A stretch of 64,000 nucleotides of DNA from assembly GCF_000377765.1 (NCBI RefSeq), contig NZ_KB898664.1, forward strand, positions 169,489 to 233,488, read 5' to 3'. The notes under the pieces are model-generated. The model was not told the origin of the DNA, did not search any database, and saw only the letters and a program-made list of their open reading frames with translations. Shown piece by piece: positions 19,089-24,857 of the stretch. The translations under genes and the position numbers were made by a program. The number at the start of each line of letters is the position of its first letter. Within the stretch, counting starts at the first letter, position 1. This DNA comes from Gracilibacillus lacisalsi DSM 19029. Its GTDB lineage: Bacteria > Bacillota > Bacilli > Bacillales > Amphibacillaceae.

Positions 19089-19375
19089 GTAGTACAACCA
19101 ATGTTTCTCACGGACAAAAGAAAGCTAAAAAAGAAAAAAGTGTCCACGAGAACAGCTCTCACGGACAAAAGAAAGCCAAAAAGGGAAAAAGTGTCCACGA
19201 GAACGGATCTCGCAGACAAAAGTAAGCCAAAAAGAGAAAAAGTGTCCACGAGAACAGATCTCGCGGACAAAAGAATGCCCTAAAGGGAAAAAGTGTCCAC
19301 GAGAACAGCTCTCACGGACAAAAGAAAGCCAAAAAGAGAAAAAGTGTCTACGAGAATATTTCGAGTACAAAAATA
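19089..19375. repeat. 51-bp hairpin-repeat array 1
   Basis: Five units start at 19140, 19191, 19242, 19293 and 19344, a period of exactly 51 bp, with a degenerate unit at 19089. Each unit reads GTGTCC, then a 17-nt self-complementary interior (ACGAGA...TCTCAC type), then GGACAAAAG and an A-rich spacer. GTCC/GGAC and GAGA/TCTC can pair. Because 51 is a multiple of three, 17-residue repeat frames run on both strands, but they lack ribosome-binding sites and the plus frame has a stop in unit 4. It is probably not protein-coding. Confidence 0.85.
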
Positions 19376-19402
19376 AAAGACAGCTTCTGAAGGTAGCTGC
19401 CT
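19371..19402 (-). terminator. rsfA terminator
   Basis: A 7-bp stem (19379-19385 with 19395-19401) followed on the minus strand by a T-rich stretch, 10 bp after the rsfA stop. Confidence 0.65.
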
Positions 19403-19410
19403 TTGCTTCA

Positions 19411-20130
19411 TTATTTTGCTACTTGTTCTAAGTTACCGTTTTTATCCATGCGGAATTTCGGAATCGGACGTGATTCCTCTTCTTCAAACACTACCATCTT
19501 TCTAGCTCGCTCGACAATTTGCATAAAGGCTTGGTAGTCTTCCTTCATCGTTTGTAATTCCTTCTCTAATTCTTTTACTCTTTTTTGTTCATTTTCCAAT
19601 TGGTTTTGTAGTTGCTCATTTTCTTGCGCTAGTTTTTGGTTATTGGCCTTTGAAGATTGTGCTAGTTTTTGCTCTTTCTTCAAATATTGTAAGTATCGAA
19701 TGACTTGATCTAGATCTATACTATATTCTTCCTGATAAGACTCAGCAACTGGAGTAGTTTCTGTTTGAGTTTGTTCGCGATTGGAATTCCAATTCAACAT
19801 CGAATATACTTCTTCTTCAATTGTTCTATTTGTCTCATTTTCTTGTTGACTAGTTTGTACACTAGGAGGTGTATAAACATTATTTTGTTTGGCAAGTGCT
19901 CTTTTCCTGTCTTTTCGTTGTTTTTTCGCAATTTGTACAGCTTGTTCATAGTTTTGTCGCACTTCGGCATTCCATCTGAATCCGCAAGCTGCTGAAGTGC
20001 GGTTTAATTTATCGCCTACTTCATCAAAAGCCCTTAATTGCGTACTCCCTTCCCGGATATGTCGTAATACTGTTTCTGCTAATAATAGGTCATCTTCATG
20101 TGACCATGCATCTTGACGTACTTTCGCCAT
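19411..20130 (-). CDS. rsfA: RsfA family prespore transcription regulator
   Basis: 239 residues. The N-terminal 55 residues (WSHEDDLLLAETVLRHIREG, then FRWNAEVRQNY) form the Myb/SANT-like DNA-binding domain of the RsfA/YlbO family. A basic patch KKQRKDRKRA follows, and residues about 145-205 form a long coiled coil for oligomerisation. RsfA tunes sigma-F-dependent gene expression in the B. subtilis prespore. In this family several paralogues exist, so the exact orthologue is uncertain. It has its own terminator and is not linked in an operon. Confidence 0.82.
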   Translation of the reverse strand: MAKVRQDAWSHEDDLLLAETVLRHIREGSTQLRAFDEVGDKLNRTSAACGFRWNAEVRQNYEQAVQIAKKQRKDRKRALAKQNNVYTPPSVQTSQQENETNRTIEEEVYSMLNWNSNREQTQTETTPVAESYQEEYSIDLDQVIRYLQYLKKEQKLAQSSKANNQKLAQENEQLQNQLENEQKRVKELEKELQTMKEDYQAFMQIVERARKMVVFEEEESRPIPKFRMDKNGNLEQVAK

Positions 20131-20184
20131 GGATGTTCACTCCTTGTTTGATTCTGATATATTTTCTAATAGATAGTTAAGCAA

Positions 20185-20402
20185 ACAGAGATGTCTAGCT
20201 CCAAGCACCAAAAACTAGTGCCCTTCCTTCATTTTCGTACGATAAGTCATCATCAGTTCCTTCGTCACTGTGATTCCTTTGTCTCCTACGTATGTATGAT
20301 CGATTAAAAGCGCCACTTTGCGTGGCAACTTCGATCCATCCGTGTTGAACGGGCACAGGTCATACGTTTTTGATCGGGTGCTTTTTGCTTTTCTAATAGA
20401 TT
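20185..20402. repeat. Bacillaceae TCTAGCTCC-type intergenic element
   Basis: The 330 bp between rsfA and rarA hold an element that begins with GTCTAGCTCCAAGCACC near 20190 and ends with GGGTGCTTTTTGCTTTTCT near 20395, with an inverted AGCACC/GGTGCT at its ends. From memory, elements with these ends are common between genes in Bacillaceae. No gene is visible in it. Similar ends appear at 39777-39860 and 42916-42940. Confidence 0.5.
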
Positions 20403-20464
20403 GATAATCGTACGAATAGATTAACTTATTCGCTATTGTGACCAGAAAAGGAGTGAATTAAACA

Positions 20465-22392: not shown

Positions 22393-23535
22393 ATGAAAGC
22401 TATCTATTTAGATCATGCCGCGACAACTCCGGTACACCCGAAAGTTGCCGAGGCAATGACAGAAAGCTTACAAGAGAATTTTGGCAATCCATCTAGTATT
22501 CATTCATTTGGACGGAAAGCTAGACAGGTTTTAGATAAAGCACGATCGGTTGCAGCCCAATCTATAAAAGCTACCGAAAAGGATATTGTTTTTACAAGTG
22601 GTGGAACTGAAGCAGATAATATCGCTATAACTGGAGTTGCGCTAGCCAATCAAGATAAAGGGAAACATATTATCACAACAAAAATCGAGCACCATGCAAC
22701 ATTACACACGGCTGAAAATCTTGAAAAACAAGGGTTTGATGTAACGTATTTAGATGTAAATGAACACGGTGTAATTAATCTTGAACAATTGAAAAATGCT
22801 TTGCGTGACGATACCATACTTGTGACCGTCATGATGGTAAACAATGAAACAGGTGTGATCCAGCCGATTGCAGAAATTGGTGAATTGCTAGCGGATCATC
22901 AAGCCTACTTTCATACAGATGCTGTTCAGGCTTATGGTATGTTACCGATAGATGTTGGGGAACTTAAAGTTGATTTATTAACCGTTTCTTCTCATAAAAT
23001 AAACGGTCCGAAAGGTTTAGGGTTTTTATATGTTCATCCAGATGTAACGTTACAAGCCTTACAGCATGGTGGAGAACAAGAGCGTAAACGTCGTCCAGGT
23101 ACGGAAAATGTTGCAGCGATTGCCGGATTTACAGAAGCAATTCAGCTTGCCCAGACAGAAAGAGAACAAAGATATCAACAATATCAAAACTATCGCGATC
23201 TCTTTTTGCAAATACTCCGTGACCGAAATGTCAATTTTTCACTTAACGGTGAAAATAGTGAACGCGTACCAAACATTATTAACGTAAGCTTCCCGGGAAC
23301 CAATGTAGAAGCGCTATTAACTAATTTTGATTTGAGTGGTGTAGCAGCGTCGAGTGGAAGTGCTTGTACAGCAGGATCAGTCGAACCTTCTCATGTGTTA
23401 AGCGCGATGTATACGGAAAATAGTAGCTGTACGACTAATTCGATTCGCTTTAGCTTCGGATTAGCGAATACTCAGGAAAATATAGCAGAGGCAGCAGAGA
23501 AAGTGGCGAAAATCGTCCAAAGACTCACAAACTAA
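22393..23535 (+). CDS. Cysteine desulfurase (YrvO/IscS type)
   Basis: A 380-residue PLP enzyme that takes sulphur from cysteine. The N-terminus [10 protein letters not shown]100-H101 and the PLP lysine K202 in [10 protein letters not shown] are visible. The persulfide cysteine is C325 in [10 protein letters not shown] chose ATG 22393 over the TTG at 22384 because homologues begin with [13 protein letters not shown]. It sits between cymR and mnmA; in B. subtilis YrvO supplies sulphur to MnmA for tRNA 2-thiouridine, and the same coupling is likely here. Confidence 0.92.
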
Positions 23536-23548
23536 GGTGGTGACAACA

Positions 23549-24658
23549 ATGAAAAAAAATGAAGATACACGTGTAATTGTCGGTATGAGTGGTGGTGTCG
23601 ATTCATCCGTGACAGCCCTTCTGTTAAAAGAACAAGGCTATGATGTTGTTGGTATCTTTATGAAAAACTGGGATGATACCGATGAATTTGGCGTATGTAC
23701 GGCAACGGAAGATTTCGATGATGTTGTTCGTGTATGTAATCAACTTGATATCCCATACTATGCCGTCAACTTTGAAAAACAATACTGGGATAAAGTATTT
23801 ACTTACTTTTTAGATGAATACAAAGCAGGTAGAACTCCGAATCCTGATGTAATGTGTAATAAAGAAATTAAATTCAAAGCATTTTTAGACCATGCCCTTT
23901 CACTTGGTGCTGATTATGTCGCAACAGGACATTATGCCCAAGTAAGACATACAGGTGATCGTGCAGAAATGTTACGTGGTGTGGATGATAATAAAGATCA
24001 AACATACTTCTTAAATCAATTGTCTGAAGATGTGTTAAAAAGAGTGATGTTCCCACTTGGAAATTTACCAAAAACGGAAGTACGTCGTATCGCCAAAGAA
24101 AACGGACTCGCTACAGCGAACAAAAGAGACAGTACTGGAATCTGTTTTATTGGAGAACGAAACTTCAAAGAATTTCTTAGTGAATATTTACCAGCCCAAC
24201 CAGGTAAAATCATGACATTGGACGGGGAAGTAAAAGGTGAGCATGACGGTCTGATGTACTACACGATTGGGCAACGTCAAGGACTTGGTATCGGTGGTCC
24301 AGGTGGTCCATGGTTTGTCGTTGGTAAAAACTTAGAAGACAATGTACTCTATGTTGGAGCAGATTACCATAATGATGCATTATATTCCGACGCACTAATT
24401 GCAACGGATATTAATTGGATTAATGAAGCACCAACTGAAGCTTTCCATTGTACGGCAAAATTCCGTTACCGCCAGAAAGATAATGGCGTAACCGTTTATC
24501 CAAATGAAGATGGCACTGCTAAAGTCATATTCGATAATCCGGAACGTGCGATTACACCAGGACAAGCAGTCGTCTTTTACCAAGATGAAATCTGCTTGGG
24601 TGGGGGAACAATAGATGAGATTATTAAAGACGATAAATATTTAGATTATGTAGGATGA
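23549..24658 (+). CDS. mnmA: tRNA-specific 2-thiouridylase MnmA
   Basis: 369 residues. The PP-loop SGGVDSSVT lies at about 14-22, the first catalytic cysteine in [13 protein letters not shown] near residue 105, and the second in [15 protein letters not shown] near residue 200. It thiolates U34 of Lys, Glu and Gln tRNAs, using sulphur from the desulfurase encoded just upstream. The ATG at 23549 follows AAGGTGGTG; an in-frame GTG at 23537 overlaps that site and is rejected. A terminator-like hairpin follows the stop. Confidence 0.95.
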
Positions 24659-24660
24659 TT

Positions 24661-24694
24661 GAAAGGGGCAGCATATTAATGTGCTGTCCCTTTC
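24661..24694 (+). terminator. mnmA terminator-like hairpin
   Basis: A 13-bp stem with one G-U pair (24661-24673 with 24682-24694) two bases after mnmA. The T run after it is weak. Confidence 0.65.
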
Positions 24695-24724
24695 GCTTAA
24701 AAAAGGTGAAAAGATAAAACAAAA

Positions 24725-24857
24725 GTGTCCATCATAAGCTCGATGAAGGACAAAAGAGGAACAAATCAACAAGAAGTGTCCATCATAAGCTTGATGAAGG
24801 ACAAAAGAAGAGCAAATCACAAAAAAGTGTCTCTTATCAATCTGATAAAAGACAAAT
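24725..24857. repeat. 51-bp hairpin-repeat array 2
   Basis: Three units start at 24725, 24776 and 24827, again exactly 51 bp apart. Each has GTGTCC or GTGTCT, a 17-nt self-complementary interior (TCAT/ATGA in units 1-2, TTATC/GATAA in unit 3), then GGACAAAAG or AGACAAATG. The geometry is the same as array 1 while the interior sequences differ. It lies between mnmA and the TPR gene. A short frame runs through it without a convincing ribosome-binding site. Confidence 0.82.

Follow-up and report, generated by a model that had tools for sequence, protein, structure and literature searches.

A 64,000-nucleotide (nt) stretch of the Gracilibacillus lacisalsi DSM 19029 genome (contig NZ_KB898664.1, positions 169,489 to 233,488 of the forward strand), referred to here as the window, contains two arrays of a 27-28 nt hairpin that recurs with an exact period of 51 nt while the sequence of its arms changes, which raises the question of what kind of element these arrays are and whether it is as DNA or as RNA that their folding matters. 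The arrays are a real, non-coding and widely spread tandem hairpin repeat of the order Bacillales. Their existence, period and positions had been reported in an original prediction made from the sequence letters, and all were confirmed, as the strict pattern GTGTCY-N17-RGACAAA was matched seven times in the window and never in 100 dinucleotide shuffles. Array 1 consists of four good units followed by a decayed fifth, and array 2 of three units, with the evidence for each given in brackets below.

19106-19139, + strand: left end of array 1, a lone right arm, TCTCACGGACA (19106-19116), and the first purine-rich linker (a right-arm-only start, as in 31 of 48 arrays)
19140-19169, + strand: array 1 unit 1, hairpin GTGTCC-N17-GGACAAA (pattern, shuffles, folding)
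19191-19220, + strand: array 1 unit 2, with AGACA giving a C-A mismatch at the stem base (pattern, shuffles)
19242-19271, + strand: array 1 unit 3 (pattern, shuffles, folding)
19293-19322, + strand: array 1 unit 4 (pattern, shuffles)
19344-19372, + strand: array 1 unit 5, decayed, GTGTCT...GTACAAA, with GTACA replacing GGACA and a shorter interior
24725-24754, + strand: array 2 unit 1, TCAT/ATGA class (pattern, shuffles, folding)
24776-24805, + strand: array 2 unit 2, TCAT/ATGA class (pattern, shuffles)
24827-24856, + strand: array 2 unit 3, with different arms (CTTATC/GATAA) and a T-A base pair, the class switch falling in the linker and not in the loop (pattern, shuffles, folding)

The hairpin form had been ascribed to every unit; this was upheld for seven of them and not for the decayed fifth unit of array 1, and the earlier start of that array, with its lone right arm and linker, had been missed. 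The compensatory change claimed for the last unit of array 2 is genuine, a T-A pair having replaced C-G. Folding as single-stranded DNA gave z scores of -2.5 to -5.4 for four units tested singly and of -4.9 and -6.0 for two three-unit stretches; in the best fold of the array 2 stretch, two units pair with each other across the linker instead of forming three separate hairpins.

Anatomy of the unit and of the array ends

Across the arrays, a unit of 51-52 nt is made up of a hairpin, whose stem of about 11 bp combines a TGTCC/GGACA base with a variable upper stem and carries a loop of 5-7 nt, and of a purine-rich linker (49% A, 26% G, 14% C and 11% T). The base, the A or G that precedes it and the AAA or AGA that trails it are near-constant, in part because the search demands them, and the upper stems occur in the classes TAAGA/TCTTA, TCAT/ATGA, CGAGA/TCTCG, ATAGA/TCTAT, GAAC/GTTC and TTTTGA/TCAAAA. 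On the strand carrying GTGTCC, the A/G-rich linker lies 3' of the hairpin and no T run is present; on the complementary strand, a T-rich stretch lies 3' of the hairpin in Gracilibacillus, this stretch being poor, as judged by eye, in the genome labelled G140, in Neobacillus cucumis and in Bacillus sp. FJAT-29790.

The spacing between neighbouring units was 51 or 52 nt in 420 of 432 cases (78 and 342, respectively) and differed in the remaining 12, with Gracilibacillus and Ureibacillus using 51 nt and most other genera 52 nt. As this count takes in 18 named loci fetched by a fixed 21-nt linker pattern, and as the covariance model used for the wider search (R1, see below) was built from pairs of 51-52 nt units, periods of other lengths are under-sampled. 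A protein-coding repeat was rejected on the strength of the period: the frame is lost at the 52-nt spacing used by most genera (342 of 432), and the frame in the window, whose cause had also escaped the original prediction, stays open only by virtue of 51 being divisible by three.

In three genomes, 48 arrays of at least two units were compared: the position preceding the first unit held a right arm without its left arm in 31 (the opposite half in one), and that following the last unit held a left arm without its right arm in 27 (the opposite half in none). Arrays therefore tend to span from one half-hairpin to the matching other half, and their end halves are mutually complementary. Where the hairpin class switches in mid-array (array 2 of the window and the loci L126 and L175), the switch falls in the linker and both arms of every hairpin still match, from which it follows that the hairpin, and not an element containing the linker, is the coherent piece. 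Within arrays, variation in the upper stem, loop and linker was 0.060, 0.190 and 0.191 in the window's own genome (labelled G000), 0.000, 0.147 and 0.100 in G140, and 0.075, 0.144 and 0.181 in G137; as the upper stem varies less than the loop and linker, something restrains the arms.

Covariation of the stems

The original prediction had taken a conserved geometry with changing, self-complementary sequence as a sign of selection on a folded DNA or RNA. The geometry itself was borne out by an alignment of 49 two-unit stretches, in which 87.8% of cells pair, compared with 32-47% when the partners are slid, and in which both sides have changed in 165 cells, compared with 57.7 +/- 5.9 in shuffles, so that covariation is present; as coding is excluded by the period, neither result set down in advance as refuting the original prediction was obtained. 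As to the folded molecule, a sense RNA is expected to tolerate G-U and not A-C, and an antisense RNA the reverse. At pairs 5-11 of 452 units from 84 arrays, 136 mismatches were G-T and 190 were A-C (23 versus 36 when counted by array, p = 0.12). The mismatch counts favour neither strand clearly, and the signature of a sense RNA, G-T in excess of A-C, was sought in these 84 arrays and not found. The history of array 2 unit 3 was even-handed, because the right-arm change there is common to G000 and G009, and G000 alone has the matching left-arm change but also carries a new mismatch.

With no G-T preference, and with a terminator ahead of the array in 30 of 52 cases, a DNA-level element looks likelier than an RNA, and the RNA half of the proposed selection is unsupported. 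Template switching, according to PMC8794818, is able to create and maintain stems without selection. A scan of the window with Rfam 15 at the gathering score returned only 6S RNA and two T-boxes, and a scan of the array 1 region alone gave only weak, sub-threshold matches. No description of such arrays in Bacillales was found among open-licence papers, which does not show their absence from print, and the claim that no named element has this design thus holds for Rfam 15 and for the literature searched.

Distribution

That the family is dispersed through the genome had not been noticed previously. In G000, a looser pattern gave 46 matches, a few of them unrelated, compared with two for the reversed pattern, and 17 arrays were counted in 16 fetched regions. 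Among these 17, the one that closes contig 2 and the one that opens contig 31 may be parts of a single array split by the assembly; in G009, contigs 5 and 57 likewise end inside or beside arrays. As contigs end at arrays, short-read assemblies under-count them.

An exact two-unit scan of named genomes recovered 18 stretches, in Gracilibacillus, Neobacillus, Pseudoneobacillus, Robertmurraya, Ureibacillus and Bacillus sp. The covariance-model search of relatives that had been suggested was carried out with R1, a two-unit model built from the 49 stretches, which gave matches in 59 of the 249 genomes sampled from the order, or 30 of 105 genera. In a sample of the class, 9 of 299 genomes were matched, five of the nine lying within the order; of the four outside it, G396 carries three units of 52 nt, G343 and G312 are weak matches, and G385 holds a different repeat. 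In G385, a genome from a different order, hairpins of the form GGCCGATA...TATCGGCC recur in tandem with a period of 61, ACTTTTT following each (locus L112, about 1501-1591), and this terminator-like repeat is probably a separate thing. The R1 matches are patchy, being absent from several Gracilibacillus genomes. A phage or plasmid origin found no support: no match to array 1 was obtained by a blastn search set for distant matches against plasmid and phage collections, and the exact two-unit pattern gave 0 matches in viral contigs, these searches being narrow because other hairpin classes would escape them. Five arrays of G140 (L117, L129, L135, L139 and L142) are embedded in a larger repeated stretch, the flanks being alike to the left and right of the array, and a match to the BsrC small RNA (Rfam RF01410) was seen in L129 at 2040-2126, about 2 kb from an array.

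Turnover between close relatives

Close relatives keep the site of an array and differ in the number of its units and, at some sites, in the whole hairpin class. At the mnmA site, that of array 2, units (some of them decayed) were present in 7 of 17 Gracilibacillus genomes, with the TCAT class in four and the TAAGA class in three, and no units were found in the other ten. At the aspS/6S site, that of array 1, which was examined in 7 of the 17 genomes, five units stand in G000, a remnant in G016 and, in G009, either none or one that is decayed; no units were seen in G002 and G001, and hairpins with another base occur in G012 and G013. These last are arrays with the base GCCG/CGGC (L196 932-1060 in G012, with three units at 52-nt spacing, and L197 930-954 in G013), which on the other strand read as hairpins with T runs behind them.

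Class replacement at one site makes the turnover directly observable. The murB site carries TAAGA hairpins in G000 and G002, TCGAGA in G009 and TCAT in G016, and the alpha-galactosidase site carries TGAGA in G000, TCGAGA in G009 and TCAT in G002. At the latter site, by eye, G009 retains a likeness to G000 in its first half-hairpin and linker but not in its inner units, a pattern suggestive of internal replacement. The flanks of G000 and G009 are about 90-95% identical where measured; by one count, unit number differs at six of seven orthologous sites, and at the seventh both genomes have four units, but of different class.

Genomic position and replication strand

Most arrays occupy intergenic DNA downstream of stop codons, often also downstream of a terminator. 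The upstream gene had the sense of the array in 67 of 80 arrays. Sorted by flanking genes, the 80 included 35 at convergent sites, 31 whose two neighbours share the direction of the array, three whose neighbours both run against it and nine at divergent calls; a crude open reading frame (ORF) caller was used for this count, so that some opposite-sense or divergent neighbours may be spurious ORFs, and some places in G235 were counted on both strands. A terminator was found between the upstream stop codon and the array in 30 of 52 cases and after the array in 6 of 52; eight arrays with an upstream ORF of opposite sense and one at a contig end had been dropped from this count. A tie to one kind of gene was rejected, as ten upstream genes scanned in G000 were diverse (ysxC, murB, ilvD, purH, essB, a sucrose-type phosphotransferase system gene, alpha-galactosidase and three without a family at E <= 1e-30), and no link to rRNA or tRNA genes was seen in the loci scanned in G140.

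In the closed genome G140 (dnaA at base 745), every one of the 72 forward units maps before 2.18 Mb, and the 28 reverse units listed, of 44, all map after 2.64 Mb. Over four closed genomes (for G137 and G262, among the matches listed), GTGTCC was on the leading strand in 70 of 80 arrays (p = 3e-12 versus one half). Convergent sites are informative here because gene direction cannot decide the strand, and at these sites the leading-strand orientation was found, by eye, in 10 of 10 arrays of G140 and in 6 of 7 of G137 among the matches listed. The terminus was assumed to lie opposite dnaA, two G262 arrays counted as lagging being close to it, and the count leaves out five single matches (G137 911730; G262 3687892; G002 4176955, 4518394 and 4663071), the one at G262 3687892 being perhaps a genuine unit of the minority orientation.

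A proposed DNA-level repeat and the competing explanations

The explanation preferred here, with a probability of about 0.5, is a BOX-like, DNA-level repeat with turnover of units at the replication fork and exchange between arrays. For the mechanism, as distinct from the anatomy and distribution described above, we infer that the arrays persist and spread as DNA. The lagging-strand template is single-stranded at the fork, and it is the GTGTCC strand when GTGTCC is in the leading-strand orientation; in this state it could fold into hairpins. Slippage and template switching at the fork would add or remove units as wholes and use one arm as the template for rewriting the other, and hairpin classes would be swapped by exchange between arrays with common base and linkers. 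If this is correct, a widespread repeat family of the Bacillales has gone unnamed, its arrays break short-read assemblies and yield open frames that are not genes, and it offers a clean natural case in which to ask whether covariation of stems is proof of an RNA function or can come about in DNA.

Several observations weigh against this explanation. Frequent arm-to-arm correction should give matched arm changes in neighbouring units of one array, and none were seen: of 3080 pairs, own arms formed 2349 and arms swapped between neighbours 2340, with own arms better in 17 comparisons, worse in 22 and equal in 181. The covariation therefore lies between arrays and species and not between recent copies. 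Slippage and exchange alone also leave unexplained why the base and period are constant across genera. No insertion with a clean empty counterpart was observed, and no empty site was close enough to reveal a target site duplication. The leading-strand excess is modest when set against an assumed gene bias of 75% (p = 0.005), and 10 of 80 arrays have the opposite orientation. Nor is the element confined to positions behind terminators: no terminator was detected ahead of 22 of 52 arrays, and none was found ahead of one (L077, about 6185-6420) that is situated, in a type VII secretion cluster, between essB and the large gene (1491 aa) that comes next.

A structured RNA, with the hairpins strung as beads along 3' untranslated regions and serving in stabilisation, processing or sequestration, would account for the covarying stems, for A/G-rich linkers that pair poorly and for the shared sense of upstream gene and array, including the 31 to 3 split between co-directional genes. 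As G-T is not preferred over A-C, terminators come before the array far more than after it, recent copies lack matched changes and no Rfam family was matched, this explanation is considered unlikely. The constancy of the 51-52 nt period over many genera, despite differing arms and linkers, would fit a protein-binding DNA array, in which palindromes on one face of the helix (52 bp being about five turns) would serve, for example, chromosome organisation or replication polarity; the symmetry of the palindromes, mismatches without strand preference and the leading-strand polarity also agree with it. Several unrelated arm classes in one genome, and sites as freely lost as that at mnmA (an array in 7 of 17 genomes), speak against a bound protein, and it too is regarded as unlikely.

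A further explanation would be a satellite-like bacterial DNA, whose sites are inherited and whose sequence is repeatedly exchanged, with five helical turns per unit, and which is replication-polar because a host factor reads the array (for nucleoid layout, fork passage or unit copying), so that shape and phase would be conserved and not sequence; this we hold to be unlikely. Covariation of purely mutational origin, in which template switching between arms keeps the palindromes perfect without function or selection, relies on a published mechanism (PMC8794818) and fits the lack of G-T preference, but leaves unexplained the constant TGTCC/GGACA, ACAAA and period over genera, as well as the lack of matched changes in neighbours, and is quite improbable. 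Non-autonomous elements moved by a single-strand transposase of the Y1 or REP-associated tyrosine transposase (RAYT) type, like repetitive extragenic palindromes (REPs), would suit the hairpins, the intergenic places and the one-strand bias at the fork, but are very improbable, since Y1_Tnp (PF01797), found in 21 of 25 other array-bearing genomes searched, is absent from G000 and from 4 of those 25 (5 of 26 in all) and thus not required, and since it also occurs in 13 of 20 genomes lacking a model match (Fisher p = 0.31). Y1_Tnp was the only transposase family searched, and no dedicated transposase was identified.

Comparison with known repeats

The nearest named kind is the pneumococcal BOX element. 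In PMC3049150, BOX is a short intergenic repeat in which a variable number of tandem inner units stands between two end modules, with predicted hairpins, an excess between convergent genes and accidental open frames; tandem inner units in variable number, intergenic position, predicted hairpins, the convergent excess and accidental frames are found here as well. BOX (boxA-boxB(n)-boxC) has distinct end modules, whereas here the inner hairpin recurs in half form at the ends (31 of 48 on the left, 27 of 48 on the right); the inner units here are hairpins in their own right, spaced at 51-52 nt, with arms that change by class. The leading-strand share is 88% of arrays, compared with 60.8% given for BOX in the same paper, and BOX is hosted by streptococci, of another bacterial order. 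As distinct end modules are lacking, the arrays are likened to BOX and not filed as BOX.

REPs and their compound forms BIME and REPIN are also small, dispersed, intergenic palindromes (PMC3733652), but the arrays differ from REP/RAYT systems in the missing Y1 transposase of 5 of 26 genomes, in their strict tandem period and in not consisting of one fixed palindrome sequence per genome. By eye, no GTAG or CGTC tag of the REP type was seen at the palindrome ends in the listed units, whose flanks are A/G-TG and ACAAA/ACAGA. The bcr1 repeat is about 155 bp long. Going by the title of its paper, it is a dispersed repeat in Bacillaceae with mobile traits, and specific to the B. cereus group; it was compared here by description and not by sequence. 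Clustered regularly interspaced short palindromic repeats (CRISPR) share a partly palindromic repeat of about 30 nt alternating with linkers of even length, but were rejected, as the linkers here are near-copies within an array (pairwise difference only 0.10-0.19 per site) and not unique spacers; the arrays are also short and many per genome. Eukaryotic satellite DNA offers a looser analogy, in that gain and loss of whole units, local homogeneity and variant replacement at a kept site would be common to both, the bacterial arrays being very short in comparison.

Neighbouring features of the window

Array 1 follows the 6S RNA gene and its terminator-like hairpin and is flanked by aspS (assigned by eye, with no family search) and, on the other strand, by a gene for an RsfA-type regulator, and array 2 is flanked by mnmA and a TPR gene. 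The following features lie upstream of the arrays.

18741-18938, + strand: 6S RNA (Rfam RF00013), upstream of array 1
about 18952-18982: terminator-like hairpin of the 6S RNA, upstream of array 1 (terminator script)
24665-24693, + strand: terminator-like hairpin 3' of mnmA, upstream of array 2 (by eye; left unscored by the terminator script, the T run being weak)

A like hairpin was seen by eye 3' of mnmA in other Gracilibacillus genomes, some of them without an array (e.g., G004 and G014). Elsewhere in the window, the two T-box leaders lie at 15353-15567 and 35555-35762, and at 29111-31087 a 658-aa ORF following two small ORFs resembles an LXG-type secreted polymorphic toxin.

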